The position numbers and the translations under genes are program-made. Under the pieces are notes generated by a model. The model made no database searches. It saw only the letters and a program-made list of their open reading frames with translations, and was not told where the DNA came from. A stretch of 42,802 nucleotides of DNA from Bacteroidales bacterium (GTDB taxonomy: Bacteria > Bacteroidota > Bacteroidia > Bacteroidales > GWF2-38-335), in contig JAFGXD010000065.1 of the NCBI GenBank assembly GCA_016936815.1, positions 1 through 42,802 on the forward strand, written 5' to 3'. Positions 14,969 to 42,802 of this stretch are shown here, in pieces; the stretch's first letter is position 1, and each line of letters begins with the position of its first letter.

Positions 14969-17290
14969 ATGAAAACCTTACTTTTTTCTCTTATTGGGTT
15001 GTTTTTGTTTATTCAGGTTAATGCACAAATTGCTTTAGGTGAGTGGCGCGATCACCTTCCTTACACCGAGGGTTTGTTTGTTGCCAAGGCCGAAACAAAA
15101 GTCTATTGCGCAAATGCTTCGGGCTTGTCTTATTTAGATTTAGGCGATAATTCAATAAACAGACTTAACAAAGTGCAGGGTTTGTCGGATGTTGGTATTA
15201 GCTCCCTTGCCTATAATTCTAACCTTAAAATTCTTTTTATTGGTTATTCAAATGGAAATATAGATTTAATTGAAAATAACACTATTATTAATATTTCCGA
15301 TATTAAAAGGAAATCTATTATTGGAAGTAAATCTGTTAATAATGTTTTTTTTGAAAGCAATTTGGCTTATTTGTCATGCGGTTTTGGTATTGTGGTTCTC
15401 GATTTAACAAGAAGAGAAATAAGAGATACTTATTACATTGGCGAAAATGGAGTTAAAACAGCAGTTTACGATTTAACTTCCAATGGAACTTTCTTTTTTG
15501 CCGCTACTGAAAAAGGTATCTACAAAGCCGATAAAAACAGCCCCAATCTTGTAGATTTTGCCTATTGGGAAAGATTAGATTACATACCAAACTACAATAA
15601 GGAATTCAACAATATAGCATTTTTTAATAATCAAATATTTTCAACTTACAATAATGGAGAAAATGCAACCGGCGATACTTTATACATTATTAATGAAACC
15701 GGTTGGCAGTATGTTGATACTACCATGGCATCTTCAATTTCAACTATTTCAGAAGGCCCTGATAAATTACTAATTTGTGGAGCAGCTAAGGTTTATATGT
15801 ACAGACCTGAATTAGATAGCTTAGATTATATTTATACTTACGGAGGTTTCAATATTAGTTCTTCTCAGGCCATTTGCGACGAAAATAATTCGGAATTACT
15901 ATGGGTGGCCGATAAAATTTCCGGTCTGGTTAGAAAAGATCTTACACAAGGTTATGGAAACTCTTTTGTTCCAAACGGCCCTTCAAATTTTAATGCTTTT
16001 TCAATTACAGCAGAAAATAACGAGGTATGGGTTTGTGCAGGAGGACGTGATGGCTCCTGGAATAATCTTTTTAGATTAGGAAATGCCTTTGTCTTTTCCG
16101 ATAACAACTGGACAAGTAAAACATGGGGCGATACTCCCTACGGAAGGGTGCGTGATGTAATAAAAGCAGAATTTTTTCCGGGCGACCAATCAAGGGTTTT
16201 TATTGCTACATGGGGATTTGGTCTTATGGAACTAAAAAATAAAGAGCTGGTAAACATTCATAAAGCCGATAATTCAAGTTTACAATCAATTTACGAAGGT
16301 CAGAATTACGTTAGACTTGGAGGACTTTGTTTTGATGCTGAAAACAACTGCTGGGTTACTAATTCGGGCGTTCCAAATCCAATTTCTGTTTTAACCCCTT
16401 CGGGAGATTGGTTTTCGTTTCCTTATGGAAGCCTCTTTAATAATACTGATATTGGAGAAATTTTAGTTACACAAACCGGTAACAAATGGGTTTTACTACC
16501 CAGAGGAAGAGGGCTTTTTGCTTTTAACGAAAATGGAACATTCGAAGATGATGACGACGACAATTACAAAGCCTTTAGTGTGTTAGATGAAACCGGAGCT
16601 ATTATTTCAAACGATATTTACGATATTGCCGAAGATAAAAACGGAACCATTTGGGTTGCCACTAACAAAGGTGCAGTAGCTTATTTTAATCCCGATAATA
16701 TTTTTGAAAACAGTGATTTTTATGCCCAGAAAATAATTCTCGATTTAGATGGTACTGCCCAATATTTGCTTGAAACAGAAATTGTTACATGTATTGCAAT
16801 AGATGGAGCCAATCGCAAATGGTTTGGTACACAAAATTCAGGGGTTTATCTTATGTCGGAAGATTGTACCGACGAAATTTATCGTTTCAATAAAGATAAT
16901 TCGCCTCTTTATTCAAATTCAATTTTAAGCATAGATGTTGAACCTGCCTCCGGAGAGGTTTTTATTGGCACCGATAAGGGAATTATTTCCTTTAGAAGTA
17001 CCGCCACAGAACCTAATAACTTATTTGGCGAGGTTTATGCTTTTCCAAATCCTGTAAAACACGATTATCAGGGCGATATTGTTATTAAAGGTCTGGTTGC
17101 CAATTCGAACGTAAAAATTACAGATATTGCCGGAAATCTTGTTTTCGAAACAAATGCTTTGGGCGGACAAGCTATTTGGAACGGAAAAACTGTAGATGGA
17201 GATAAGGTTAAAACAGGTGTTTATCTGGCTTTCTGCACCAACGAAGACGGTTCGAAAACTCATGTTACAAAAATTCTGGTAATAAACTAA
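14969..17290 (+). CDS. porZ: T9SS surface protein PorZ
   Basis: The 773-residue product has a signal peptide (MKTLLFSLIGLFLFIQVNAQ) and then the PorZ-type opening ALGEWRDHLPYTEG. Repeated propeller strands follow (VYCANASGLSYLD, LFIGYSNGNIDLIE, IWVATNKGAVAYF, VFIGTDKGIISF), consistent with two beta-propeller domains. A C-terminal type A T9SS sorting domain (about 690-773) has YAFPNPVKHDY, KITDIAGNLVFE and GVYLAF. Family knowledge: PorZ is part of the T9SS attachment complex on the cell surface and helps deliver the anionic lipopolysaccharide that anchors cargo. It is followed by recO after 4 bp, an arrangement I recall as common in Bacteroidota. This gene shows that the host has the T9SS needed by the giant protein next door. 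Confidence 0.87.
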   Translation: MKTLLFSLIGLFLFIQVNAQIALGEWRDHLPYTEGLFVAKAETKVYCANASGLSYLDLGDNSINRLNKVQGLSDVGISSLAYNSNLKILFIGYSNGNIDLIENNTIINISDIKRKSIIGSKSVNNVFFESNLAYLSCGFGIVVLDLTRREIRDTYYIGENGVKTAVYDLTSNGTFFFAATEKGIYKADKNSPNLVDFAYWERLDYIPNYNKEFNNIAFFNNQIFSTYNNGENATGDTLYIINETGWQYVDTTMASSISTISEGPDKLLICGAAKVYMYRPELDSLDYIYTYGGFNISSSQAICDENNSELLWVADKISGLVRKDLTQGYGNSFVPNGPSNFNAFSITAENNEVWVCAGGRDGSWNNLFRLGNAFVFSDNNWTSKTWGDTPYGRVRDVIKAEFFPGDQSRVFIATWGFGLMELKNKELVNIHKADNSSLQSIYEGQNYVRLGGLCFDAENNCWVTNSGVPNPISVLTPSGDWFSFPYGSLFNNTDIGEILVTQTGNKWVLLPRGRGLFAFNENGTFEDDDDDNYKAFSVLDETGAIISNDIYDIAEDKNGTIWVATNKGAVAYFNPDNIFENSDFYAQKIILDLDGTAQYLLETEIVTCIAIDGANRKWFGTQNSGVYLMSEDCTDEIYRFNKDNSPLYSNSILSIDVEPASGEVFIGTDKGIISFRSTATEPNNLFGEVYAFPNPVKHDYQGDIVIKGLVANSNVKITDIAGNLVFETNALGGQAIWNGKTVDGDKVKTGVYLAFCTNEDGSKTHVTKILVIN

Positions 17291-31620: not shown

Positions 31621-32676
31621 CTATTTTTTAGCCAGTTCCTTAACTCTGGCAAAATACATGGCAAACGAACGGTACATAAAGTGTGTCCATTTTCCGAAAG
31701 GAACAATTATTAAAGCCCACTGAACCAAAATAATTAGGTGGAAATAGTAAATCCACGAATTGTCGACAATTAGCTCTAAATCTATAAATAATCTAACTAC
31801 AAAAGCCGTAACACCCATTAAAAACAACCAGATTACAAAAAACCAGTCGCTGGGTTGTGAGTATTTACTAATTTCTTTTTTGCGCTTTATTCTTCCTGAA
31901 ACAAAATCTATTGTTACCAGAAAAACTATTGCGCTAAACAAATAACCAATGGCAATAATTATTTGATTTGAAGTGCCAAACCAATCGAGAACCACAGTTG
32001 TAAACAAAAGAGACAAGTACCCTAAAACGAGAATAAAATGTTCGAACCAGCGAAACTGATTATCGTCGCAGCCCAATGCTCTTTTTTGTGTAAACATGTG
32101 AATAAACAATTCCCCCATTGCCTTAAAATATATTCCTATTCCGGCCTTTGAACCGGGCTTTAAGACTGTAAAATTCCACATTCTAAAAATGTTGGGAAGA
32201 AGTATTATTGCAAAAACAGCTCCAATGGAAATCATTTCGAAAAGATGTCCGTAATGCATTATTTTTGCCAAATTAAAGTTTTCGTATGCTCCATAGCCAA
32301 TTACTCCTGCTGCTAATAACAAAAAAGCAAAAATGCTGAGAGGAAGAGATTTATACAAGAGTCCTGAAAGTCCTGTCCAGTCGTATTTTGCAGTTAACCA
32401 TCTTCTTAGCGCCTGCATTAGTTCTCCGGGGTTGGCAGTTTGAGGACAATGTTCAGAACATTCGCCACAGTAGTAACATTCCCAAGGCTTTAAAGATGCT
32501 GAAATTTCTTCCTGCATTCCCATAACACCATAACGAACCATTTCTCTGGGAAAGGAGCTGTCTTGAGTTGATAAGGAACAAACTGCTGTGCAATTTCCAC
32601 AGTTGTAGCATGCAGTAAAATCTACCGCACCATATTTTTTCAACTTAATTCCGAATTGGGGATCTATCTTATTCAT
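31621..32676 (-). CDS. qmoC: QmoC-like membrane subunit (two 4Fe-4S clusters plus b-type cytochrome domain)
   Basis: The 351-residue protein joins an HdrC-like N-terminus to a NarI/HdrE-like membrane domain. The first cluster is Cys23-Cys26-Cys29-Cys33 in CYNCGNCTAVC, the second Cys67-Cys70-Cys73-Cys77 in CYYCGECSEHC. From about residue 105 there are six hydrophobic helices with histidines placed as possible heme b ligands (MHYGHLFEMIS, WFEHFILVLGYL, YYFHLIILVQW). In sulfate reducers QmoC exchanges electrons with the menaquinone pool for the QmoAB flavoproteins. It is the last gene of the cluster and overlaps the winged-helix gene by 8 bp. The next features are a terminator and a converging gene. 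Confidence 0.85.
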   Translation of the reverse strand: MNKIDPQFGIKLKKYGAVDFTACYNCGNCTAVCSLSTQDSSFPREMVRYGVMGMQEEISASLKPWECYYCGECSEHCPQTANPGELMQALRRWLTAKYDWTGLSGLLYKSLPLSIFAFLLLAAGVIGYGAYENFNLAKIMHYGHLFEMISIGAVFAIILLPNIFRMWNFTVLKPGSKAGIGIYFKAMGELFIHMFTQKRALGCDDNQFRWFEHFILVLGYLSLLFTTVVLDWFGTSNQIIIAIGYLFSAIVFLVTIDFVSGRIKRKKEISKYSQPSDWFFVIWLFLMGVTAFVVRLFIDLELIVDNSWIYYFHLIILVQWALIIVPFGKWTHFMYRSFAMYFARVKELAKK

Positions 32677-32956
32677 TTACTTTCTTAATTTTATAAGTGA
32701 AATACTCATCCATATCGTCAATTTCTCCTTTTTCTACAATACCGTATTTTAAAAGAGACATCAGATAGTACAATACATCAGTTTTTGGCATAGCAAGTTT
32801 TTCGCTTAACTGACTAATAGTTAATTCTTCCTCCTTAAGAGCATCTACAATACTTTTCTTTATTCTTGTGAATTGCTTAAGATTTTCAATAGCAGCAGGC
32901 GAAACAGCTTGTTGCTCTTTTAAAAATTTAGCGGTTTTTCCTTTTTCGGGTTCCAT
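32669..32956 (-). CDS. Small winged-helix protein inside the Qmo-like operon
   Basis: The 95-residue product has a winged-helix-like core: IKKSIVDALKEEELTISQLSE, split as the helix IKKSIVDALKEE and the helix-turn-helix LTISQLSEKLAMP, then DVLYYLMSLLKYGIVEKG and a wing. It could bind DNA and control the cluster, or act as a small structural partner of the Hdr-like proteins. It sits 10 bp after the HdrA-like gene and overlaps the qmoC-like start by 8 bp, so it is translationally coupled to the complex subunits. The position inside the complex genes, not at the operon end, favours a close link to the enzyme. Confidence 0.7.
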   Translation of the reverse strand: MEPEKGKTAKFLKEQQAVSPAAIENLKQFTRIKKSIVDALKEEELTISQLSEKLAMPKTDVLYYLMSLLKYGIVEKGEIDDMDEYFTYKIKKVNE

Positions 32957-32966
32957 AATATTCTTA

Positions 32967-34898
32967 TTAATCTTTTGCCAATAATTTTATCATACTTTCA
33001 ATTTCCTTGTTAGAAAAGGCTATAAGCTCAATTGAGTCGGAAGGACAAACCGGAAGACACATTCCACAACCTTTGCAATTAGAATTGTTAATAACAGCAA
33101 CTGCTTTTCCGTTGTAATCAACTTTCTTTATTGCATCGAAAGGACAAGCTTCCGAGCAGATTCCGCACCAAGTGCAGGTATCTTTATCTACTTCAGCTAC
33201 AATTGGTTCTAGCTCTAATTCACCTTTACTTACATAGGAAAAAGATTTTGTAGCCGCCGAAAGAGCAGAATTTACCGATTCGGCAATATTTTTCGGACCC
33301 TGACAAGTTCCTGCAATGGTAATTCCATCTATTACAGTCTCTACAGGACGAAGTTTCATGTGAATTTCGTTAAAAAACTTATCTCTTCCTTTTGGTAATT
33401 TGAATAATGAACCTATTGAATTTTCGGCTCTTGGAGTCATTCCCGTTACCAAAACCACCAAATCGGCTTCCACCATCATTTCTTTTGTTCCGGTAAGAAT
33501 ATCGTTAATTTTTACAATTGTTTTTCCGTTCTGAATATCAACTACCGGAGGATCGTTTTCGTAAGATTGCAAGTAAATATCGCCCATTTTTGAAGATTCG
33601 TGGTACAAGGCTTCTTGTTTTCCATAAGTTCTTATTCCTCTGGTAAAGTGGAAGTTAAATATACCCGGAAACTTTTTCTTTGCTTCAATTGATGAGTGAA
33701 TTGTTGTGGTGCAACAGTAACGTGAACAAAATTTGTTTTCTCCTTCTGATTGTCGGCTTCCAACACAATAAATGTATGCTATATTTTTGATTTTCTTTCC
33801 GTTATAAATCAATTCCTTATTACTTGCACTAACAAGTCTCTGAAACTGAGAAAGAGTAATTACATTATCAATAGCATTAAAACCAAATTCACCTGTTTCC
33901 GGCAAATATGGGTCAAAACCTGTTGCCATAAGAATTGATCCTACATGCAAATCTACTGTTTCCTCTTTTTGGGAAAAGTCAATATTTTCGCAAACCTTTT
34001 CGCATTCTCCGCAACGGGTGCAGTTTATATTATCAATAACAGGCCTTTTTGGAAATTCAGATTCCTTATTTTGGTAAATTGCTTTTCTCTTTTTTAGGTT
34101 GAATTCGAATTCATCGTCAACTTCCACAGGACAAACGCTAATTGCTTTTTCAATGTTTTCCTTTTTGAATTCGCTTTTTACAAACGAAGGCTTAATTCTT
34201 ATTTTAAGATGAAAATCTCCAATACTACCCGAATACGATTCGGCCTCGGCACCTGTGTAAAGAATAATGTTTTTATGATTCTTAATTTTTTCATAAAGTT
34301 CGGAAACAATTTCTCCACCGGATTGATTGCTTGTACAAACCGAATCCCACTGTGCAGTTCGTCCCCCAACAAAAAATTCTCTTTCCACCAGAAAAACCTC
34401 TGAGCCCATATTTGCAAGTTCTATTGCAGCTTTCATACCGGCAACACCTGCTCCAAAAACAGCAACAGCTTTTTTCGACTTAATTTTTATTGGTTCAAGC
34501 GATTCGGCGTAGCGAACCTTAGCAATAGCAGCTTTTACAATGTGAATAGCCTTTTCGGTAGCCCCGGCTTTATCGTCGGAATGTGCCCAGGAAGCCTGTT
34601 CTCTAATGTTAGCATGAACGTAATTGTATTTATTAAGACCTGCACGTTCTGTAACAGCTCTAAAAGTTATTTGGTGAAGTTTTGGAGAGCATGAAGCCAC
34701 GATAACACCATCGAGCCCATTACTTTTAATATCTTCAACCATTTCTTTTTGGTTAGAATCGGCACAGGCAAACATAGTGGTTTTTGCCATAGCCACTCCT
34801 TCTTCGTTTTCAATGGCTTTTTTTACCTTTTCCACATCCACATAATCGGAGATATTTCCGCCACAGTGACAAATATATATACCTAGTTTTTTATTCAT
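32967..34898 (-). CDS. qmoB: HdrA-like iron-sulfur flavoprotein (QmoB-like, without MvhD domain)
   Basis: The 643-residue protein has the HdrA layout: an N-terminal domain with Cys10/Cys12 in YICHCGGNI and further cysteines (MFACADSN, ASCSPKLH), an FAD-binding thioredoxin-reductase-like domain (about 140-560, AVFGAGVAGMKAAIELA), an inserted ferredoxin motif (CTRCGECEKVC, about 290) and two C-terminal 4Fe-4S motifs (CTWCGICSEACP and CKGCGMCLPVCP, about 580-630). It should pass or bifurcate electrons between sulfur chemistry and the membrane subunit. Typical QmoB carries a C-terminal MvhD domain, which is missing here; a separate MvhD-like gene lies two genes upstream. Its gene starts 7 bp after the QmoA-like stop. 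Without HdrB/HdrC in view, Qmo is the better label than heterodisulfide reductase. Confidence 0.82.
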   Translation of the reverse strand: MNKKLGIYICHCGGNISDYVDVEKVKKAIENEEGVAMAKTTMFACADSNQKEMVEDIKSNGLDGVIVASCSPKLHQITFRAVTERAGLNKYNYVHANIREQASWAHSDDKAGATEKAIHIVKAAIAKVRYAESLEPIKIKSKKAVAVFGAGVAGMKAAIELANMGSEVFLVEREFFVGGRTAQWDSVCTSNQSGGEIVSELYEKIKNHKNIILYTGAEAESYSGSIGDFHLKIRIKPSFVKSEFKKENIEKAISVCPVEVDDEFEFNLKKRKAIYQNKESEFPKRPVIDNINCTRCGECEKVCENIDFSQKEETVDLHVGSILMATGFDPYLPETGEFGFNAIDNVITLSQFQRLVSASNKELIYNGKKIKNIAYIYCVGSRQSEGENKFCSRYCCTTTIHSSIEAKKKFPGIFNFHFTRGIRTYGKQEALYHESSKMGDIYLQSYENDPPVVDIQNGKTIVKINDILTGTKEMMVEADLVVLVTGMTPRAENSIGSLFKLPKGRDKFFNEIHMKLRPVETVIDGITIAGTCQGPKNIAESVNSALSAATKSFSYVSKGELELEPIVAEVDKDTCTWCGICSEACPFDAIKKVDYNGKAVAVINNSNCKGCGMCLPVCPSDSIELIAFSNKEIESMIKLLAKD

Positions 34899-34905
34899 TG
34901 CTTAT

Positions 34906-36204
34906 TTATTTATTATTAAGATATGAAATAGCTTCCGATGAGGCCGAGCCTGCGGAAAGAATTGAATCCGGAATATCCATTGGTCCTGAGGCCGTTCCTG
35001 CAACAAAAACTCCTTTTATACTTGTTTTTGCGGGACTTACCAATTGCTCGGGTTGTTTCACAAAATTGTATTCATCTAATTGAAGGCTTTTGTCAACGAA
35101 TAGTTTTTCGGATTCTGTATTTGGAAGAACTCCAACAGAAAGCACCACCATATCGTGTTCGGCTTCTTTTAAGATATTCTCGTTAATATCTTCGTAGCGC
35201 AAAATCAAGTTACCTTTTGCGTTTTCTGTTATTTTTCCAATTTTTCCTTTAACAAAATTTACTCCCATACCTTTGGCTTGTTCGTAGAATTCTTCAAATC
35301 CTTTTCCAAACGACCTGATATTTATGTAGTAAATTGTAATATCGGCCATAGGCAAAGCGCCCATAAGAAGTTGAGCTTGTTTTATTGAGTACATGCAACA
35401 AATTTGAGAGCAAATTGGGTTTCCAACCGATGCATCTCTGGAGCCGGTGCAAAGAACGTATGCAATTTTGTCGGGCATTTTTCCGTCGCCCGGTCGTAAA
35501 ATTGTGTGAAAAGGTCTTGTTGGAGCAAGTTGTCTTTCCATTTGCATACTGGTAATAACATTTTTATACTCACCAAAGCCGTATCTAGGAATATTTACAG
35601 GGTCGAAAAGATTAAATCCTGTGGCAACCACAACAGTTCTTACCTTAACAGAATATTCAACAGGCTTTTGGGTAAAGTCTATACATTTTGTTGGGCAAGC
35701 TCTTTCGCAAGCTCCACAAAGAGTACAATTCTCAATGTCTATTGCAGCTACTCTGGGACTTGCAATGCTGAAAGGAATATATGCAGCTTTTCTTCCCACC
35801 AAGCCATATTGGTATTGATCGGGAACATTTACCGGACAAGCTTCTTCGCAAAGTTGGCAACCGGTGCAGTCTTCCGCAATAACATATCTGGGTTTACGCA
35901 CAACCTTAGCATCGAAATCGTTTTCCCCATTTTTCACAATTCCTTTAACCTCCGTTTCAGTAAAAATTGTAATTAGAGGATGTCGGGAAATTTCCGAAAC
36001 CTTTGGAGTTGTAATGCAAGCCGAACAATCGAGAGTAGGAAAAACCTTGCTTAGGTGAATCATTTTTCCACCAACAGAAAGGTCTTTTTCAACTACCAAC
36101 ACTTTAAAACCGTTAGTTGCGAGATTTAGTGCAGCTTCTCCTCCGGCAATGCCGCCGCCGACAACAAGAGCATCAAAGGCAAGAGATGTATTTTTTTCTG
36201 ACAT
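34906..36204 (-). CDS. qmoA: HdrA-like iron-sulfur flavoprotein (QmoA-like)
   Basis: The 432-residue protein has an N-terminal FAD-binding motif (ALVVGGGIAGGEAALNLA, 12-29), HdrA-type cysteines Cys60 and Cys63 in LDCSACITTPK, two 4Fe-4S motifs (Cys113-116-119-123 in CTGCQLCEEACPV; Cys160-163-166-170 in CTLCGACERACPT), and a second flavin-domain half ending with GVFVAGTASGPMDIPDS. Its short length, with no N-terminal HdrA extension, matches QmoA rather than full HdrA. In QmoABC this subunit faces the partner enzyme, adenylylsulfate reductase in sulfate reducers. That enzyme is not in the window, so the partner here is unknown. The start is 2 bp after the MvhD-like stop. Confidence 0.83.
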   Translation of the reverse strand: MSEKNTSLAFDALVVGGGIAGGEAALNLATNGFKVLVVEKDLSVGGKMIHLSKVFPTLDCSACITTPKVSEISRHPLITIFTETEVKGIVKNGENDFDAKVVRKPRYVIAEDCTGCQLCEEACPVNVPDQYQYGLVGRKAAYIPFSIASPRVAAIDIENCTLCGACERACPTKCIDFTQKPVEYSVKVRTVVVATGFNLFDPVNIPRYGFGEYKNVITSMQMERQLAPTRPFHTILRPGDGKMPDKIAYVLCTGSRDASVGNPICSQICCMYSIKQAQLLMGALPMADITIYYINIRSFGKGFEEFYEQAKGMGVNFVKGKIGKITENAKGNLILRYEDINENILKEAEHDMVVLSVGVLPNTESEKLFVDKSLQLDEYNFVKQPEQLVSPAKTSIKGVFVAGTASGPMDIPDSILSAGSASSEAISYLNNK

Positions 36205-36206
36205 AA

Positions 36207-36614
36207 TCAGTTGTTTACATTATTTATTAAATATTCATTGAAGGATTTCATTTGCTTAACAAACGATTCGCTACAAACCGAACAAATAGCTGCCATGCGC
36301 AACCTTGCACTTTCAATATTTTTTTCCTTCATTAATTCGTGGGTTTTTGCAACAATATGACCGGTTTTTTCGGTGCAGGATTCTCCGTAGGGACAATCGC
36401 TTCCGTCTGCTGCAATAAAGACACCGCTAAACCCTTCTTCAAAAGCGTTTAGAATCCACCTTGGTTTAATTCCGCTCGAGCATGGAACCGGAATAGTATA
36501 AACTGTTGGAGGATAATGCAATTTCAGAAGTCCTGCCATATCAATGGCAGGATCTGAAATCTTCTCAGTGGAAAACACTAAGATTTTAGCATATTTCTTG
36601 TTTGAAACAGGCAT
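36207..36614 (-). CDS. Stand-alone MvhD-like protein
   Basis: The 135-residue product matches the MvhD/FlpD family: AKILVFSTEKISDPAIDMAG, then YPPTVYTIPVPCSSGIKPRW, AFEEGFSGVFIAADGSDCPY and a conserved ESARLRMA segment. Cysteines 45, 74, 80, 111 and 114 are available for a 2Fe-2S cluster. The N-terminal CNWC pair seen in many family members is replaced by STEK. MvhD carries electrons between a hydrogenase or dehydrogenase and HdrA, or forms the C-terminus of QmoB. Here it sits 7 bp after tusA and 2 bp before qmoA, as if the QmoB tail had become a separate subunit. Confidence 0.78.
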   Translation of the reverse strand: MPVSNKKYAKILVFSTEKISDPAIDMAGLLKLHYPPTVYTIPVPCSSGIKPRWILNAFEEGFSGVFIAADGSDCPYGESCTEKTGHIVAKTHELMKEKNIESARLRMAAICSVCSESFVKQMKSFNEYLINNVNN

Positions 36615-36621
36615 GTTTTAA

Positions 36622-36873
36622 TTAGTTTTTCTTCATGTAAATTTTAAAAAATCCGCTTTCTTCAACGGTTCCAAGGTATTCGTGACCTTGTTTTGTGCAC
36701 CATTTTGGAATATCAACTCTTGTTCCTTCGTCCGCCGATAATACTTCCATAATATCGCCTGATTTAATAGTTCCAATAGCTTTTTTTGCTTCCAATAATG
36801 GACCGGGACAAGCTGTTCCGCGTGCGTCAACTGATTTGTTAACCTCTAATGCTTTTAATTCTTGTTCATTCAT
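36622..36873 (-). CDS. tusA: Sulfur carrier protein TusA
   Basis: The 83-residue cytoplasmic protein has the TusA/SirA signature DARGTACPGPLLEAKKA with the persulfide-carrying Cys22 in the CPGP motif, followed by the usual two-layer fold residues (LSADEGTRVDIPKWCTKQG). TusA takes sulfur from a rhodanese or DsrE-type protein and passes it on. It lies 20 bp after a DsrE-family gene and 7 bp before the MvhD-like gene, linking the sulfur carriers directly to the Qmo-like complex. In this setting a role in energy metabolism is more likely than tRNA thiolation. Confidence 0.92.
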   Translation of the reverse strand: MNEQELKALEVNKSVDARGTACPGPLLEAKKAIGTIKSGDIMEVLSADEGTRVDIPKWCTKQGHEYLGTVEESGFFKIYMKKN

Positions 36874-36893
36874 GATTGTAAATTATTAATTGA

Positions 36894-37259
36894 TTAATAT
36901 GTTAATACTGATTTTGCTGAAATTACTTCGTCAACCAACGTGCCTGCTGCTGCAGGTTCTGCACCTTGCACTAAATCTTTAGCAGAAATACCTCTTTCTT
37001 TTATACAAGGAGCACAAATATACAATTTTCCTCCTTCATCGTAAAAATTATCTAAAAGTTCTTTCAATGGGAGTAAACCATGAGCTCTAACATTCTCCGC
37101 TTCTCCTTTCTTAGAAAGTACTACTGCTTCCGATTGAAGAAACATTACCACTTCAACATCCATAGATTGAGCTGCTGTAGCAAAAACAAAGGGTAAAGTA
37201 GCCTTTTCAGGATTCTCTAAACCAATTGTACTAATGATAACTATTTTTTCTTTGTTCAT
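36894..37259 (-). CDS. DsrE-family sulfur carrier
   Basis: From the ATG at 37259 the product is 121 residues. A GTG four codons upstream is a poorer start. The DsrE/F-like fold is shown by VIISTIGLENPEKA, DVEVVMFLQSEAV and the conserved region KLYICAPCIKERG with Cys82 and Cys85, the usual position of the active cysteine. DsrE proteins accept persulfide sulfur and exchange it with TusA, whose gene follows after 20 bp. It is the first gene after the 140-bp control region with a CRP/FNR-type dyad, so it probably begins its own transcript that runs to qmoC. Confidence 0.88.
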   Translation of the reverse strand: MNKEKIVIISTIGLENPEKATLPFVFATAAQSMDVEVVMFLQSEAVVLSKKGEAENVRAHGLLPLKELLDNFYDEGGKLYICAPCIKERGISAKDLVQGAEPAAAGTLVDEVISAKSVLTY

Positions 37260-37332
37260 CTTTTTTTTCACAAATGTCAGTAATTAATATACCGATTGAA
37301 AGTAAATTGATGTTAAACGAAATATGTTTTTT

Positions 37333-37387
37333 TTTGAATCTTATCATACTGCAACATGACCAAAGTCATATCATAGTGTGATTCAAA
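37333..37387. repeat. Nested inverted repeats in the control region between the DsrE genes
   Basis: TTTGAATC (37333-37340) and GATTCAAA (37380-37387) form a perfect outer 8-bp inverted repeat around a second dyad, ATGAC-CAAA-GTCAT (37356-37369). The outer right arm overlaps the CRP/FNR-type site at 37377-37392. The inner dyad may be a second operator. Its minus-strand reading contains TGACTTTG, one mismatch from a -7 box. Confidence 0.55.
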
Positions 37388-37392
37388 TCACA
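37377..37392. promoter_or_regulatory. CRP/FNR-family operator
   Basis: TGTGATT-CA-AATCACA has perfect 7-bp arms and meets the CRP consensus TGTGA-N6-TCACA exactly. It lies 8 bp beyond the stop of the first DsrE gene and 118 bp before the ATG of the second. It is well placed to control the DsrE-tusA-qmo part of the cluster. HcpR, a CRP/FNR-family regulator known in Bacteroidota and sulfate reducers, recognises sites of this general type, so it is the first candidate; this is inference. Confidence 0.65.
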
Positions 37393-37399
37393 AAAAGAT

Positions 37400-37813
37400 T
37401 TATATGTTTATGTGAATATCTGCTTCTTTGGCAGCATCAATATACTGACCAATACCGCAAAGACCATCAACAATATCAATAAAATCTTCCTTTTTTTCTC
37501 CACCCCAAAGTTTACCGGCAAGAGAGCATATATAGATTTTAACATCGGTAAATTCTTTTGCTTGTTCAAAAAACTCTAACCAAGTTGGTACAGCAAGTTT
37601 TTCCATATTGGCAAAGAATTCGCTTTTTAGATGAGGATATTCTACCAAAGAGTCGGTAAGATCTTCATTTCCTTTAATAAAAGCTCTTGCAGCCGTTAAG
37701 AGAACATAAACCTCAACATCCATATCATCGGCAGCAGCACCACTCATTATTACTCCTGTACCAACCAGTTTGTCAACACTTCCCGAAGAAAGTCCAATAA
37801 CCATTTTCGACAT
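37400..37813 (-). CDS. DsrE-like sulfurtransferase-fold protein
   Basis: The 137-residue product has the DsrE/DsrF/DrsH-like fold: KMVIGLSSGSVDKL, AAADDMDVEVYVLLTAARAF and KIYICSLAGKLWG with Cys96, plus Cys119 in GLCGIGQ. It resembles the longer peroxiredoxin-like or DsrE3-type members rather than DsrE of the DsrEFH complex. It probably binds sulfur on Cys96 in the cytoplasm and exchanges it with the second DsrE or TusA. The start is fixed by a good ribosome-binding site at 37821-37828. It is the only cytoplasmic protein in the otherwise exported upstream half of the cluster. Confidence 0.82.
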   Translation of the reverse strand: MSKMVIGLSSGSVDKLVGTGVIMSGAAADDMDVEVYVLLTAARAFIKGNEDLTDSLVEYPHLKSEFFANMEKLAVPTWLEFFEQAKEFTDVKIYICSLAGKLWGGEKKEDFIDIVDGLCGIGQYIDAAKEADIHINI

Positions 37814-37820
37814 ATTTTTA

Positions 37821-37828
37821 TCTCCTTT
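37821..37828 (-). promoter_or_regulatory. Strong Shine-Dalgarno site before the first DsrE gene
   Basis: On the minus strand AAAGGAGA lies 7 bp before the ATG at 37813. Such a clear site is rare in this window, where most genes lack one, and suggests high translation of this DsrE protein. Confidence 0.6.
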
Positions 37829-37843
37829 GTTTTAATTAATAAA

Positions 37844-38347
37844 TCAACCTCCACAGCCTCCTGAAGGCGGACCTGCTACCTTCGTTTCATGTTGTGCAGA
37901 TTTTGGTTCCAGCTCCACTAAATCTGGAAATTGCTGTTTCCAATTTTCAAATCCTCCTTCAAGAACCACAACATTGCTAAATTTCATTTTTGGCAAAACC
38001 GAGGCCAATAGACTGCTTCTGTCGCCATTGCTGCAATACACAACCAATTTTGATCTTCTTTCGGGAGCGGCATTACTAATTGTAAATTCTGCCAAGCCTC
38101 TTGGAACATTTACTGCTCCTTTAATACAGGCCGAATCGTACTCGTTTTCTTCACGGCAATCGATAATGTAGAGTTTTTCCTCATTTTCTACTGCCGACTT
38201 TAAATCTTCTGCTGTAATAGTTTCAACACAAGATTGAGCATCTTTTACCATATCGCTGCTGCTTTCGTAAACCTTCATTTCCTTTTCGGAACATGAAGAA
38301 AACAGAACAGCCAAAGCCAGTAATGATATTTGAATTATTTTTTTCAT
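37844..38347 (-). CDS. Rhodanese-domain lipoprotein with C-terminal GGCGG tail
   Basis: From the ATG at 38347 the product is 167 residues. The earlier ATG at 38386 would overlap the previous gene and hide the lipoprotein signal. The signal MKKIIQISLLALAVLFSSC ends in a lipobox with Cys19. One rhodanese domain (about 45-145) has LYIIDCREENEYD, VNVPRGLAEF and the active loop Cys105-SNGDRS. The C-terminus is PPSGGCGG with Cys165, almost the same tail as in the lipoprotein at 41282-41767. It should carry or transfer sulfane sulfur outside the inner membrane. The extra tail cysteine could hold a second persulfide. Confidence 0.86.
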   Translation of the reverse strand: MKKIIQISLLALAVLFSSCSEKEMKVYESSSDMVKDAQSCVETITAEDLKSAVENEEKLYIIDCREENEYDSACIKGAVNVPRGLAEFTISNAAPERRSKLVVYCSNGDRSSLLASVLPKMKFSNVVVLEGGFENWKQQFPDLVELEPKSAQHETKVAGPPSGGCGG

Positions 38348-38357
38348 CTTTTTTTGT

Positions 38358-39152
38358 TTATTTACTCCATTCGCTATATGCACCATCGTAAACTTTTACA
38401 TTGGTATAATTAAGCAATGATGTTAAAATAAAATAAGCCAAACCTGCCGATGTGCTTGTTTTACAATAAAGAATAACCTCTTTGTCTTTTGTAACACCTG
38501 CAGTTTCGAAAAGGGTAGTAAGAGCTGCATTAGCTTTTATTTTGGTGCCTGTAAGGAAACCTTCGTAACAAACATTTATAGCATTCCCAATATGCCCTGC
38601 ATCGTAATCAGCTTTTTTTCTTGTATCAACAATAATAGTTCCCGAAGCAGACAGTTTAGACTGTACATAAGCTTTATCAACCAAAATACTGCTTTTTACC
38701 GCAGGAGTAAATGTTGCCGCAGTTGGAGTTTTAGCTACTTTTGTAATAGGTTTTCTTGCGCTAAACCAGCCGTCCATTTGTCCATCTAGCATTTTAACAT
38801 CTTTGCAACCCATATATTTTAGAATCCAGTAAAGACGTCCGGCATTAACACCGGTTTTACAATAAACAACAATGGTTTTATCGGCTGTAATTCCGTGTTT
38901 TCCCAAAATGGAAGCCAAAGATGCTTTATCTTTCAGTTTTCCTTCGTAAGGAGTTTTATCGCATAATGTTTCAACATCCAAATTAATAGCGCCGTTAACG
39001 TGAGTTTTAAGGTAATCTGCAGAAGTTCTTGCATCTACAACAACCACATTTGGTTTTCCAATAAGAGGAGCCAAATCGTTTGCCGAAATTTTCTGAGCAG
39101 ATAGCTGAGAAATAATCAGCAGCGAAAAAATTAGTGAAAAAATTGTTTTCAT
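38358..39152 (-). CDS. Secreted tandem-rhodanese sulfurtransferase
   Basis: The 264-residue product has a signal peptide (MKTIFSLIFSLLIISQLSAQ) and two rhodanese domains. The first (about 24-140) has VVVVDARTSADY and the active loop Cys98-KTGVNAG. The second (about 150-264) has IIVDTRKKADYDAGH and Cys230-KTSTSAG. Unlike classical two-domain thiosulfate sulfurtransferases, where only the second domain keeps the cysteine, both domains keep it here. It acts in the periplasm, probably on thiosulfate or a polysulfide. The gene lies 11 bp from the porin gene and 10 bp from the following lipoprotein. Confidence 0.88.
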   Translation of the reverse strand: MKTIFSLIFSLLIISQLSAQKISANDLAPLIGKPNVVVVDARTSADYLKTHVNGAINLDVETLCDKTPYEGKLKDKASLASILGKHGITADKTIVVYCKTGVNAGRLYWILKYMGCKDVKMLDGQMDGWFSARKPITKVAKTPTAATFTPAVKSSILVDKAYVQSKLSASGTIIVDTRKKADYDAGHIGNAINVCYEGFLTGTKIKANAALTTLFETAGVTKDKEVILYCKTSTSAGLAYFILTSLLNYTNVKVYDGAYSEWSK

Positions 39153-39163
39153 GATATTATTTT

Positions 39164-40246
39164 TTAAAATTTTGCCTGTAATTGAATCATTAACATATCG
39201 TTATCTATTGGAGTATGTTCCGACACATTTACATAGTTAATTTGAACTCTTGAATAGTCGTTTACAAAGTAATTTAATCCAATAGTAAGGTAATTAATCT
39301 CATCGTTATCTGTTTCGCTGCTTGCATCCCAACTGTCGTATTTAACAACAGGTTCAAGATTCCACTTTGTTTTAAAAGCAGCCATTACAGCGTAACCCGA
39401 TTTTCCGTAAGTTCCTTCCTGAAGAGTGTTATAGCCGACGATTCCTCCGCAACCTCCATAAACAGGTACTCTTGAAGCACTATAAAGCTTATCGTTTCCG
39501 GTAATATATTCGGTTTGAAATGTTAGATTATTGTATTTTACCTCTAATTCTCCTCCAAAACGCTGAATATCGTTCAAATCTTGAGTCAAATCTGTTGGAT
39601 TAGTTTTTTCCATCTTAAAACTACCTCCAACTTTTACGAATTTATGAGGATTAAATACCAGTCTTCCAACTATTTCCTTATTATTATTGTTGTCTGTTGT
39701 ATTCATTCCTGCTCCGTTCATTATTCCTAAACTGTATTTTACCAATAGAGTGTCGTGACCACCGGCAATTACCATTCCCAAATCTCTTTGAGGTCCGGCA
39801 AGCTGATTAACAACTTCTGAACGATTTACAGTGTATAACTCAGAACATCCTGTTGATTGTTCTATACCAAATGAAGATTTAAACTGACCTAAAGAAATTT
39901 TTGCCCATTTGGCAAAGCGGGTATAAGTAACAAAAGCATCAAGAAGATGTGGAGTTGCCGCTTGAGATTTAAAGGCGCTCATTTCAACAAAGAAATAATA
40001 TTCAATGTCGTATGGAATTTCACCAAGAACACCTAGTCTAGCCCGGTTAAAAGTAAAATTATTTTCATCCAGGCTATTGCCATCATCATCCTTACCGTTT
40101 AGGAAATAGTTGTATTGAGGTTGAATAAAGCCTTTAAGGTTTACACCTTCTTTGCCTCCGCCCATGCAGCCTTGCGAAAAGCTGTTTAAACTTGTTCCTG
40201 CAATAAGGATGATGATTAGTCTAAAAATATTTGTTTTTAAACGCAT
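39164..40246 (-). CDS. Outer-membrane porin (phosphate-selective porin O/P-like)
   Basis: The 360-residue product has a signal peptide (to SFSQ, about residue 25) and alternating beta-strand sequence of a 16-stranded barrel of the OprO/OprP type: GFIQPQYNYFLNG, FTFNRARLGVLGEIPYDIEYYFFVEMS in its parts, ISLGQFKSSFGIEQ, and a C-terminal strand ending in MIQLQAKF. Porins of this family select anions. Its place in the middle of four rhodanese genes suggests uptake of a sulfur anion such as thiosulfate, tetrathionate or polysulfide across the outer membrane; this is inference. The gene starts 20 bp after the double-rhodanese lipoprotein gene. Confidence 0.82.
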   Translation of the reverse strand: MRLKTNIFRLIIILIAGTSLNSFSQGCMGGGKEGVNLKGFIQPQYNYFLNGKDDDGNSLDENNFTFNRARLGVLGEIPYDIEYYFFVEMSAFKSQAATPHLLDAFVTYTRFAKWAKISLGQFKSSFGIEQSTGCSELYTVNRSEVVNQLAGPQRDLGMVIAGGHDTLLVKYSLGIMNGAGMNTTDNNNNKEIVGRLVFNPHKFVKVGGSFKMEKTNPTDLTQDLNDIQRFGGELEVKYNNLTFQTEYITGNDKLYSASRVPVYGGCGGIVGYNTLQEGTYGKSGYAVMAAFKTKWNLEPVVKYDSWDASSETDNDEINYLTIGLNYFVNDYSRVQINYVNVSEHTPIDNDMLMIQLQAKF

Positions 40247-40266
40247 AGCAATAGTTTATTTATTTA

Positions 40267-41229
40267 TTAGTTTTCGTAAACAAAACTTCCTGAGCTTGTC
40301 CAGTTGTGAGATTCAAGTGTGCTGTGAATCATTCCATTGGCACCAAATTTTAAACTAACTGCATCGTAACCTAAAACAGTTAAGTAAGCAGTAATTAAGC
40401 TTGAAGTTTGTCCAGTCCAGCAGTAAGTTACAACAGTAGAAGCACCATCAAGATATTTAAAACCATCGGCTGCAAGAGTTAAATCTTCTTTAATTCTGTA
40501 AGCACCTTTAATATGACCGTAATGTTCAACATCAGTTAAAGCCCAGTAGTTGTTAATAAAGTAGTTGGTTGGTGTAGCCAAAACATCGGCAGCATTAACT
40601 CCTTTAAATCCACCTTCAAGCATTGCTTCAACTCTTTCGGCAAGAATAGCCTGACCGGTAGTTGCTGTAGTTGTAAAAGTAGGTTTTGTAAAAGTTACAT
40701 TTGTTTCCAGAGTATTTGTAGTTGACCAGTTGGAATTACCTGTACCCATGTCGCTAACATTTGCTGTCCATTTGTCGAAATCAACATTCCATGAGCTCAT
40801 TCCCCACATTAATATTTTGCTGTCGAAGCCGCTAAGTTTAAGAGCAACATGACCATGTGCAGCAGTTTGACCTGTATAACAAACAACCACAATAGGTTTT
40901 CCACCGTTACTTGCAGCCTGATTTACAACATTTGCTAAAGTTGTATTAACAGCTCCGGGAATATGACCAAGGTTATAGTCAACTTCAGCTCTTAGGTCGA
41001 TAATGTAAAAATTCTCTTTTGTAGTATCAAGAGCAGCAGCGGTAATAGTCCATGTTGTCATAATTTCGTTAAGATCCATTCCATTTGCAGCCATGTAATC
41101 TGTCATTTCCTTAACATAGTCTGTAGTTGGAGTTGGATCATCGTCTTTATCCTTTTTACAACCTGTTGAAACAATAATTATTGATGCAAAAAGCACCGCC
41201 ATTAATTTGTAAAGATTTTTTGTATTCAT
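40267..41229 (-). CDS. Double-rhodanese lipoprotein
   Basis: The 320-residue product has a lipoprotein signal with Cys24 in IIIVSTGCKKDKDDD. Two rhodanese domains follow. The first (about 40-160) has FYIIDLRAEVDYNLGH and Cys118-YTGQTAAHG. The second (about 190-315) has Cys270-WTGQTSSLI. The matching C-(Y/W)-TGQT loops show that the domains are close relatives and differ from those in the other rhodaneses here. Both keep the active cysteine. It is anchored outside the inner membrane and should relay sulfane sulfur between the porin side and the YeeE permease. Confidence 0.87.
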   Translation of the reverse strand: MNTKNLYKLMAVLFASIIIVSTGCKKDKDDDPTPTTDYVKEMTDYMAANGMDLNEIMTTWTITAAALDTTKENFYIIDLRAEVDYNLGHIPGAVNTTLANVVNQAASNGGKPIVVVCYTGQTAAHGHVALKLSGFDSKILMWGMSSWNVDFDKWTANVSDMGTGNSNWSTTNTLETNVTFTKPTFTTTATTGQAILAERVEAMLEGGFKGVNAADVLATPTNYFINNYWALTDVEHYGHIKGAYRIKEDLTLAADGFKYLDGASTVVTYCWTGQTSSLITAYLTVLGYDAVSLKFGANGMIHSTLESHNWTSSGSFVYEN

Positions 41230-41281
41230 TTTATTTAATTTAATTGGTTACTAATTTTTTATTTGTTTTAGAATTATTTGT

Positions 41282-41767
41282 TTACCCTCCGCAACCTCCC
41301 GAAGAAGCTTTTGGTTTTGCGTTTGGGTCTTGATTTGGGTTAAAAGCATCGTAGCCACCTTCAAGATTTTTTACATTTTTAAATCCAAGTTGTTTTAGAC
41401 TTCTTACTGCCAAAATACCTCTGTTTCCGCTTTTGCAATAAACTACAATTTCGGTACTGTCTTTCATTGGTGGGTAAAGGTATTGCGATGACCAGAATTC
41501 TTCATCGTATATTTTGAACTCCAAAATTCCTCGCGGAAGCAGAATGGAACCGGGAATGTTTTCGGTATAATATTCGCCGGGTTGTCTAATATCCAGAAGA
41601 AGAAATTCCTCACCGGATTCAATCTTTTTGTGTAAATCGTCAACTGAAATTTGTTCAATGCTCGATTTATAGTTTTCGGCCATTTCTGTACCGTCTTCAT
41701 AAATTCCGGTACAACCGAAAAACAGTACTGAAAAGGAAAGAAGAAATAATATTGATAATTTTCTCAT
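41282..41767 (-). CDS. Rhodanese-domain lipoprotein with C-terminal GGCGG tail
   Basis: The 161-residue product has a lipobox Cys19 in SVLFFGC. One rhodanese domain (about 38-145) has FLLLDIRQPGEYYTENIPG, LLPRGILEFKIYDEEFW and the active loop Cys111-KSGNRG. The C-terminus is KASSGGCGG with Cys159. It shares the PRG(I/L)xEF segment and the GGCGG tail with the lipoprotein at 37844-38347, so the two are probably paralogues placed at the two ends of the rhodanese set. It lies 12 bp after the YeeE gene, which suggests that it hands sulfur to that permease. Confidence 0.87.
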   Translation of the reverse strand: MRKLSILFLLSFSVLFFGCTGIYEDGTEMAENYKSSIEQISVDDLHKKIESGEEFLLLDIRQPGEYYTENIPGSILLPRGILEFKIYDEEFWSSQYLYPPMKDSTEIVVYCKSGNRGILAVRSLKQLGFKNVKNLEGGYDAFNPNQDPNAKPKASSGGCGG

Positions 41768-41779
41768 GATAATTTTGTT

Positions 41780-42802
41780 TTAGAAAGCTGAAAATCTTCC
41801 GGTTTTTTCATTCCACTTAACAAATGCATACCAAACAAATAGAAAAGCTAAAACAGCCACAAAAGCGCCATCGTAACCAATATAGTCGGGCAGAAAGTTC
41901 TTGAATCGGGTTGAATGAGGTAAGATATTATCGAAAACCGGTACAATAAAAGCTTTAGAAAGAGGAGAAACCACAATAAATCCTAAAGCAGCCATCCAAA
42001 GTTTAATCTGCCCCTCACCTACTCTCCACAAAGTTCCAACAGCGCAACCACCGGCAATTGTCATTCCCACGCCAAAAATCAATCCTCCAATTCCTGCTTT
42101 TGCCCAGAAATGAGGAAATACCCAAGTCATTTCTCTTGCACGCAAAGCTTCATCGCCGGCACCAATTCCAAAGATTTTAATAACAGTAAAGCCAATTAAA
42201 CCCACCAGAAGTCCGGCCATTACACCAACTGCTCCATGCGATTCGCCACTCATAAACGGGTCTCGAAAAGCTTTAACAATACAAAATCTGGAACGTTGAG
42301 AAATTAATCCCATTAATCCGCCAATAATTATGAACCAAGTCATTACATTATTATTTCCGGCGTAAGAATAGGCCAGAATAATAACGCCTAGAACCATAAT
42401 CCAACCAAGAATTACTTGCCAACCGCCTTTTTGGGGACTTGCTGCAAGAAAGGTATAAGATTTTCCTGTTGACCATTTTGGAAATTTGTCCATTTCCCAT
42501 AATAAATAGCGTAAAGCAATAATTACCCCAATAAACAAACCTAAAGTAAAAACCAGTGCTCCACCAGATAATGCTGCAACACCGCTAAAAAATGCTCCAA
42601 TAGTGCAACCAATTCCAACAGTAGCACCTATTGCCATTAATCCACCGCCAAGTAAACCTTTTAATAATTCTCCTTTTGGTGGAATACGTAGAGCAAATTC
42701 TTTGGAAAACAATGCGCCAATAAAAGAACCCAATACTATTAAAATTCCCAACATAGCATAAAGATTCATATTTACAGGGCTTAAATTCTCGAACGACATC
42801 AT
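41780..42802 (-). CDS. YeeE/YedE (TsuA-like) sulfur permease, N-terminus probably outside window
   Basis: At least 340 residues with about nine membrane helices. The conserved pore motifs of the family are GIGCTIGAFFSG (Cys66), RSRFCIVKAFRDPF (about Cys174) and GMTIAGGCAVGTLWR (about Cys254). In TsuA such cysteines pass thiosulfate through the membrane. The first motif normally has its own RxRFC-type segment upstream, and that is not present. An ATG ends exactly at the window edge, so the true start is probably further right. It is the first visible gene of the cluster and may move thiosulfate or sulfane sulfur to the cytoplasmic DsrE and TusA. Confidence 0.87.
   Translation of the reverse strand: MMSFENLSPVNMNLYAMLGILIVLGSFIGALFSKEFALRIPPKGELLKGLLGGGLMAIGATVGIGCTIGAFFSGVAALSGGALVFTLGLFIGVIIALRYLLWEMDKFPKWSTGKSYTFLAASPQKGGWQVILGWIMVLGVIILAYSYAGNNNVMTWFIIIGGLMGLISQRSRFCIVKAFRDPFMSGESHGAVGVMAGLLVGLIGFTVIKIFGIGAGDEALRAREMTWVFPHFWAKAGIGGLIFGVGMTIAGGCAVGTLWRVGEGQIKLWMAALGFIVVSPLSKAFIVPVFDNILPHSTRFKNFLPDYIGYDGAFVAVLAFLFVWYAFVKWNEKTGRFSAF

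Follow-up and report, generated by a model that had tools for sequence, protein, structure and literature searches.

Gene content of the locus

The window analysed here is the whole of a 42,802-nucleotide contig (JAFGXD010000065.1, C188) from a Bacteroidales genome, a 3.58-Mb assembly that is 95.5% complete and that we examined by family searches and by reading chosen stretches. Between positions 31621 and 42802 its minus strand carries 14 genes in which an original prediction, made from the letters alone, had seen a complete-looking relay of sulfur from outside of the cell to quinone. The genes all lie on this single strand in the predicted order, and Pfam and NCBIfam profile searches upheld the family assignment of each: Sulf_transp, four rhodanese genes (two of them two-domain), Porin_O_P, two DsrE-family genes, TusA, FlpD/MvhD, two HdrA2-like flavoproteins, an ArsR-type winged-helix protein and a QmoC-like protein. 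Content and order thus stood; completeness within the window did not, as the transporter gene is cut by the contig end.

Only the last 340 of ~404 residues of this YeeE/SoxT-like sulfur transporter (41780..42802; PF04143, E 3e-41) are in the window; its relatives are 404 residues long. Contig C60 ends with the missing first part; the two contigs share 18 bases, one of them mismatched, and the frame is kept. A second tusA is situated on C60, 228 bp from the contig end; if the C60 join is correct, the complete operon has 15 genes. Upstream of this tusA, on the opposite strand and divergent from the operon, two Crp/Fnr genes stand in tandem (L198:596-2047); after them, the other strand carries genes for a response regulator and a histidine kinase.

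In the direction of transcription the transporter is followed by Rho1, a lipoprotein rhodanese with a C-terminal GGCGG tail (41282..41767; PF00581), Rho2, a two-domain rhodanese lipoprotein with CKKDKDDD after the lipobox (40267..41229), an outer-membrane porin (39164..40246; PF07396), Rho3, an exported two-domain rhodanese (38358..39152; PF00581 twice), Rho4, a lipoprotein carrier of rhodanese fold with a GGCGG tail (37844..38386; PF00581), and DsrE2, a DsrE-family protein with an active-type Cys96 (37400..37813; PF13686). Then come the DsrE/TusC-like DsrE1 with Cys86 and Cys89 (36894..37271; PF02635, E 4e-16), TusA (36622..36873; PF01206), a protein of FlpD/MvhD fold (36207..36614; PF02662), QmoA-like and QmoB-like flavin Fe-S proteins (34906..36204 and 32967..34898), a small winged-helix protein (32669..32956; HTH_5) and a QmoC-like membrane subunit with two 4Fe-4S sites and ~6 transmembrane helices (31621..32676). 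Gaps had been described as mostly under 55 bp; distances do run from -29 to 52 bp, with the sole exception of a 128-bp gap between DsrE2 and DsrE1 (37272..37399).

Two modules and their junction

As its nearest relatives indicate, the operon is a modular fusion of a core common in Bacteroidales, DsrE-TusA-FlpD(MvhD-like)-QmoA-QmoB-winged helix-QmoC, with a rarer import cassette, TusA-YeeE-Rho1-Rho2-porin-Rho3-Rho4-DsrE. In this operon DsrE2 is the final gene of the import module and DsrE1 the first gene of the core.

When 295 genomes of the order were searched with QmoA, 45 had close orthologs and 7 more had orthologs with an inserted NAD(P) domain, 52 of 295 altogether; outside the order, a phylum-wide draw of 396 genomes produced just two matches of ~52% identity. 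The unit recurring around QmoA consists of a divergent Crp gene, one or two DsrE genes, TusA, FlpD, QmoA, QmoB, a small winged-helix protein (in 33 of 40 loci) and QmoC. A scan of named genomes found at least 587 loci; the best 80 of them, which we examined, have the core order in common wherever the locus is long enough to show it, and the order is conserved over many genera. The isolates Seramator thermalis and Prolixibacter denitrificans are among the carriers, as are assemblies under the names Paludibacter, Proteiniphilum and Petrimonas. Reduction of elemental sulfur (S0) is known from Petrimonas sulfuriphila.

The long form, import module followed by core, is repeated almost gene for gene in five loci (L162, L165, L166, L171 and L173) and partly in L154; it is somewhat altered in L052 and L056, and in L057 the two modules stand tail to tail. 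Given this repetition and the recurrence of the core order in the best 80 loci, the gene order is not due to chance. A YeeE gene of the window's type is present in 15 of the 295 genomes, 11 of which also have the core where ~2.6 would be expected (hypergeometric p ~1.5e-6, uncorrected for relatedness of the genomes).

Comparison of nearest relatives divides the operon of the window in two. From YeeE to DsrE2, its genes have their nearest relatives in extended operons (YeeE is 80% identical to that of L173 and has no core-only relative), while DsrE1, TusA, FlpD, QmoA, QmoB and the winged-helix gene have theirs in core-only operons (for QmoB, 73% versus 60%); the relatives of QmoC do not discriminate. 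In a QmoA tree, many branches of which are weak, the window sits among core-only sequences and most other extended operons are in another clade. Vertical inheritance of the entire operon is unsupported, since import and core genes differ in nearest relatives.

The change of nearest relatives falls in the 128-bp gap, likely the original promoter region of the core. The gap holds a perfect TGTGA-N6-TCACA site, the Crp/Fnr-type palindrome TGTGATTCAAATCACA (37377..37392), which is the sole match in the window; one match per window is chance level, so that the weight of the site rests on its position. With no more than one mismatch, the palindrome was found in 23 of 27 Crp-DsrE intergenic regions of core loci, compared with a mean of 0.18 in shuffled sequences, and the core usually adjoins a divergent Crp gene. 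The simplest account is that the import cassette was inserted ahead of a core whose own promoter was retained. Control of the core under anoxia, and perhaps of both modules, probably lies with a Crp/Fnr regulator.

Some relatives depart from the common pattern. In L025/L173 (genome G026), the operon most like the window's import module, QmoA has an in-frame TAG, a sequencing error or a broken gene. In L066, L067, L068, L069 and L070 the normal 432-residue QmoA of the core is replaced by a protein of 914-921 residues whose first Fe-S site is followed by an inserted GltD-like NAD(P)-binding domain, a form that does not occur in the window and resembles HdrL discussed in PMC12142623. Directly upstream of the core, L067 (12175-17263) and L070 (1039-6110) have genes for a cysteine desulfurase, DsrC, a membrane protein, a DsrK/TmcB-like protein and a second cysteine-desulfurase-like protein, which hints at cysteine as the sulfur source in these two loci.

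Exported carriers and the transporter

The GGCGG tail, or a near form of it (last residue G, D, E or absent; one SGCGG), was present in all nine orthologs of Rho1 and all ten of Rho4. In Rho1 both the catalytic cysteine and the tail cysteine are kept in 9/9 orthologs; in Rho4 the catalytic cysteine is lost in seven of ten, yet the tail cysteine is kept in every one. That the tail cysteine of Rho4 outlasts the rhodanese cysteine suggests that the tail is the working site. Among ~7,060 open frames of the collected loci 43 had GGCGG-type tails, and all of these were exported rhodaneses save two short spurious frames.

In SoxY, according to PMC6067878, which cites Sauve et al. 2007, the cysteine of a C-terminal GGCGG carries the sulfur substrate. 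A SoxY domain was not found in Rho1 or Rho4, which have the rhodanese domain only. Rhodaneses of the Phs-PmpAB operons, an operon type widespread in the order, end in GGC(G/S) in nearly all loci read. Since a YeeE-family transporter neighbours GGC-tailed rhodaneses in both settings, the arm probably presents sulfur to the transporter. The YeeE protein itself has kept its three transport cysteines in 9/9 orthologs.

Acidic residues after the lipobox cysteine are a feature of surface lipoproteins in this phylum, and those of Rho2 suggest that it may face outward. L056 has an extra Rho2-like exported protein, ending in QGGC, outside the operon (1144-2223). All orthologs of the porin have QGC near the mature start, a conserved N-terminal cysteine that is unusual for a porin.

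Cytoplasmic and membrane components

Cysteines expected to be active in sulfur transfer are invariant in TusA (Cys22 of CPGP, 35/35), DsrE2 (Cys96, 19/19) and DsrE1 (Cys89, 7/7). The AlphaFold model of FlpD (mean predicted local distance difference test score, pLDDT, 81) has the MvhD fold (5odh_D, template modelling (TM) score 0.84, E 1e-12); however, the protein is without the N-terminal cysteines of MvhD (CCxxC/CCNWC). Instead, it has C45, C74, C80 and a C-S-V-C motif (C111, C114), all five found in 40/40 sequences; these could either bind a cluster or take up sulfur.

Both flavoproteins score best against HdrA2 models (NF040770, 474.7 bits over 133-561 for QmoA and 561.8 bits over 1-640 for QmoB). 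QmoC matches NF038018 with E 2e-38 and 133 bits, below the NCBIfam equivalog cut-off of 300; its eight cluster cysteines, as well as His213, His313 and His332, are present in 40/40 sequences. By these scores the three proteins are Qmo-like and not canonical, which qualifies the names they had been given. The sulfane-sulfur relay from outside to quinone is well supported as anatomy: exported rhodaneses, a YeeE with three transport cysteines, TusA and DsrE with active cysteines, and a membrane subunit of quinone type are all in place.

Search for partner enzymes

Full aprAB-sat-dsr genes elsewhere in the genome, which the original prediction had regarded as the mark of an ordinary sulfate-reduction locus, did not turn up: family searches of the 95.5% complete genome gave no match to the sulfite-reductase domain (NIR_SIR/DsrAB), Sat, DsrC or the HdrB-type CCG domain, and the best match to AprA had 23 bits against a cut-off of 642. 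A sulfate-reduction qmo locus was rejected for the lack of Sat, AprA and DsrAB matches, and the sHdr pathway for that of the CCG domain. In a set of 40 core carriers the sulfite-reductase domain was absent from 36 and Sat from all 40, hence the core is independent of these enzymes. DsrC, absent here and present in 22 of the 40, was rejected as a necessary partner.

Three molybdopterin enzymes are encoded in the genome: a formate-dehydrogenase-like enzyme, an NADH-linked fusion and a PhsA-like reductase; by family matches and context, none is SoeA-like. The last belongs to a PhsABC-PmpA-PmpB operon on contig C72 (L080:8419-14638) with two exported rhodaneses ending in GGCG, one of which has serine for the catalytic cysteine. 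Operons of this composition (PhsABC, PmpA, PmpB and rhodaneses) were found in 88 of the 295 genomes. Their distribution is independent of the core (14 genomes shared, 15.5 expected, p 0.74), and Phs was rejected as the missing core enzyme.

No constant partner of the core emerged among the tested enzymes (the searches did not extend to sulfide:quinone oxidoreductase, persulfide dioxygenase or NADH-dependent polysulfide reductase). This makes the FlpD-Qmo complex the best candidate for the redox step, and it is probably that step itself.

Proposed mechanism and alternatives

From gene content and order, conserved cysteines, the module junction, the shared operator and the absence of the tested sulfate and sulfite genes, all read directly from sequence, we infer a chemistry and a direction: sulfane sulfur would be imported and passed to TusA and DsrE, and a menaquinone-linked complex of the type II Qmo/Hdr-like kind would reduce it to sulfide. 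We give this reading nearly an even chance of being right. Rho2 at the surface and Rho3 in the periplasm would take sulfane sulfur from polysulfide, S0 or thiosulfate passing the porin; Rho1 and Rho4 would carry it as persulfide on the GGCGG arm to YeeE, which would hand it to the TusA encoded next to it. In the cytoplasm TusA and DsrE would deliver the sulfur to the FlpD-QmoA-QmoB-QmoC complex, and this complex, rather than a Dsr, Apr or sHdr enzyme, would most likely reduce the bound persulfide to sulfide with menaquinol electrons arriving via QmoC; ferredoxin could perhaps be a co-donor through the HdrA-type flavins. Core-only operons would run the same reaction on sulfane sulfur reaching the cytoplasm by other routes. 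Among oxidation, reduction and disproportionation, all of which had been left open, reduction is favoured here, given the inward direction of the line and the absence of every cytoplasmic oxidising enzyme that was tested.

Several points weigh against this proposal. Direction is not fixed by sequence. Reduction of S0 would call for energy coupling, since menaquinol is a weak donor for it. The existence of core-only operons means that the import module is not essential for core function, and the native substrate of the core may not be external sulfur. In a genome of this completeness an absent gene could also be missed.

The same complex could run in reverse, turning cytoplasmic sulfide into TusA/DsrE persulfide and sending the electrons into menaquinone, as a sulfide:quinone oxidoreductase assembled from Hdr and Qmo parts, for which fumarate, nitrate or oxygen would be the acceptor; YeeE would then work outward or on another substrate. 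This is chemically possible, menaquinone is a favourable acceptor for sulfide, and P. denitrificans, a carrier of the core, is named for denitrification; on the other hand, several carriers belong to genera known as fermenters, and the exported GGCGG carriers, porin and YeeE resemble an import line. TusA-DsrE sulfur transfer is bidirectional in a related system (PMC13293266), whereas YeeE-family proteins have been described as importers (PMC11582611). On balance we consider the reversal unlikely. A role outside respiration, with the operon detoxifying polysulfide, or supplying and sensing sulfur for biosynthesis, and Qmo as an electron outlet, would suit the frequency of the core in genera known as fermenters, the use of TusA and DsrE in sulfur supply for tRNA and Fe-S clusters, and the tight regulation suggested by the Crp and winged-helix genes; a dedicated import line of 7-8 genes and an intact quinone-type membrane subunit would nevertheless be a large outlay for detoxification, which makes such a role quite unlikely.

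Imported sulfane sulfur might instead be oxidised beyond S0 by an unrecognised enzyme, in oxidation or disproportionation, and the electrons would reach menaquinone through the Qmo-like complex, a scheme put forward for cable bacteria or for disproportionators with YTD. YeeE-TusA-DsrE sets do occur in sulfur disproportionators and cable bacteria (PMC12998232, PMC13293266), and two relatives have, upstream of the core, genes for DsrC, a DsrK-like protein and cysteine desulfurase that could be read in the same way; with DsrAB, AprA, Sat, HdrB and DsrC all unmatched here, and with sulfite reductase almost and Sat wholly absent in carriers, we find this improbable. Finally, the Phs/Psr-like operon on C72 could be the core enzyme that the operon of the window merely feeds or drains: it is in the genome together with its GGCG-ending rhodaneses, and Phs operons across the order have kept a GGC tail. 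Its independence of the core, along with the sister genome G033, which has Phs and lacks the core, renders this highly improbable.

A stronger form of the persulfide-reduction proposal would make FlpD-QmoABC a sulfur-respiring enzyme of a new kind, a persulfide reductase that faces the cytoplasm and is linked to quinone. In it an MvhD-fold protein with a novel set of cysteines would receive sulfur from TusA/DsrE, Hdr-type flavins might draw electrons from menaquinol and ferredoxin together, and SoxY-like GGCGG arms on rhodaneses would feed it from outside; the core is present in about one sixth of the sampled Bacteroidales genomes. We put this forward tentatively, as a possibility somewhat more doubtful than not. 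If true, many anaerobic Bacteroidales have a sulfur respiration missed by marker surveys with dsrAB, aprA, soxB and psrA; HdrA/Qmo complexes without HdrB gain a testable substrate, TusA or DsrE persulfide; and a second type of carrier, SoxY-like in design, is identified for the delivery of sulfur to YeeE transporters. The core-bearing isolates S. thermalis and P. denitrificans make the reading testable now.

Comparison with known systems

YTD/DsrEFH type II clusters of cable bacteria, Desulfobacterota and Nitrospirota (PMC13293266, PMC12998232) share with the present operon YeeE/YedE, TusA and DsrE-family genes in one cluster and the conserved DsrE cysteine. The operon differs in having no DsrAB or DsrC, in being joined to rhodaneses, a porin and FlpD-Qmo, in its Bacteroidales host, and in having two DsrE-family genes rather than the E-F-H trio of a trimer. 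Co-occurrence with reductive DsrAB is typical of those clusters (73.9%) and not strict; here, as in 36 of the 40 carriers, NIR_SIR gave no match. The original prediction was correct that such sets occur in disproportionators; as a marker of disproportionation, though, they are no longer accepted by all authors (PMC13293266).

In type II QmoABC/Hdr-like complexes, which may be found where Dsr and Apr are missing, QmoA and QmoB are nearer to HdrA than to the canonical Qmo proteins (PMC10504309). By family-model scores the present proteins resemble this type, with HdrA2 as best models and a QmoC present; they differ in their constant partners, TusA, DsrE and a separate FlpD with new cysteines, and in having no Apr partner. 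Canonical QmoABC is accompanied by AprAB and Sat, and sHdr by HdrB-type CCG subunits; AprA, Sat and the CCG domain were all unmatched here. The bifurcating HdrA-MvhD complexes (PDB 5odc, 8rvu) also combine HdrA-type flavin Fe-S subunits with an MvhD-fold protein; unlike them, the present set has no HdrB and includes the membrane subunit QmoC.

With regard to the import module, a cluster of Desulfurivibrio dismutans proposed for sulfur import (PMC12142623) likewise has a porin beside exported lipoprotein rhodaneses and YeeE; the organism that it serves is a Dsr/Psr disproportionator, and no operon uniting it with Qmo is described. SoxYZ-SoxT import (PMC11582611; for the motif, PMC6067878) has a C-terminal GGCGG carrier next to a YeeE-family transporter and TusA; here the arm is on a rhodanese fold, not SoxY, and the operon is without Sox enzymes. 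The Bacteroidales PhsABC-PmpAB operons of this study share the exported GGC-tailed rhodanese beside a YeeE-family transporter, while their reductase is a molybdopterin enzyme with a Tat-like signal.

The absence of a described pathway with this exact combination was thus borne out for Bacteroidota in the open-access literature searched, where no description of the gene set was found, and has to be qualified by the type II Qmo and the porin-rhodanese-YeeE cluster already known. The parts have precedents; the same literature yielded no description of their union in a single operon, of the cysteine set of FlpD or of rhodaneses with a GGCGG arm.

Other genes of the window

Elsewhere in the window, 5765-14704 encodes a 2979-residue PKD-repeat protein with a CHU_C type IX secretion signal, adjoined by a PorZ-like gene (14969-17290).

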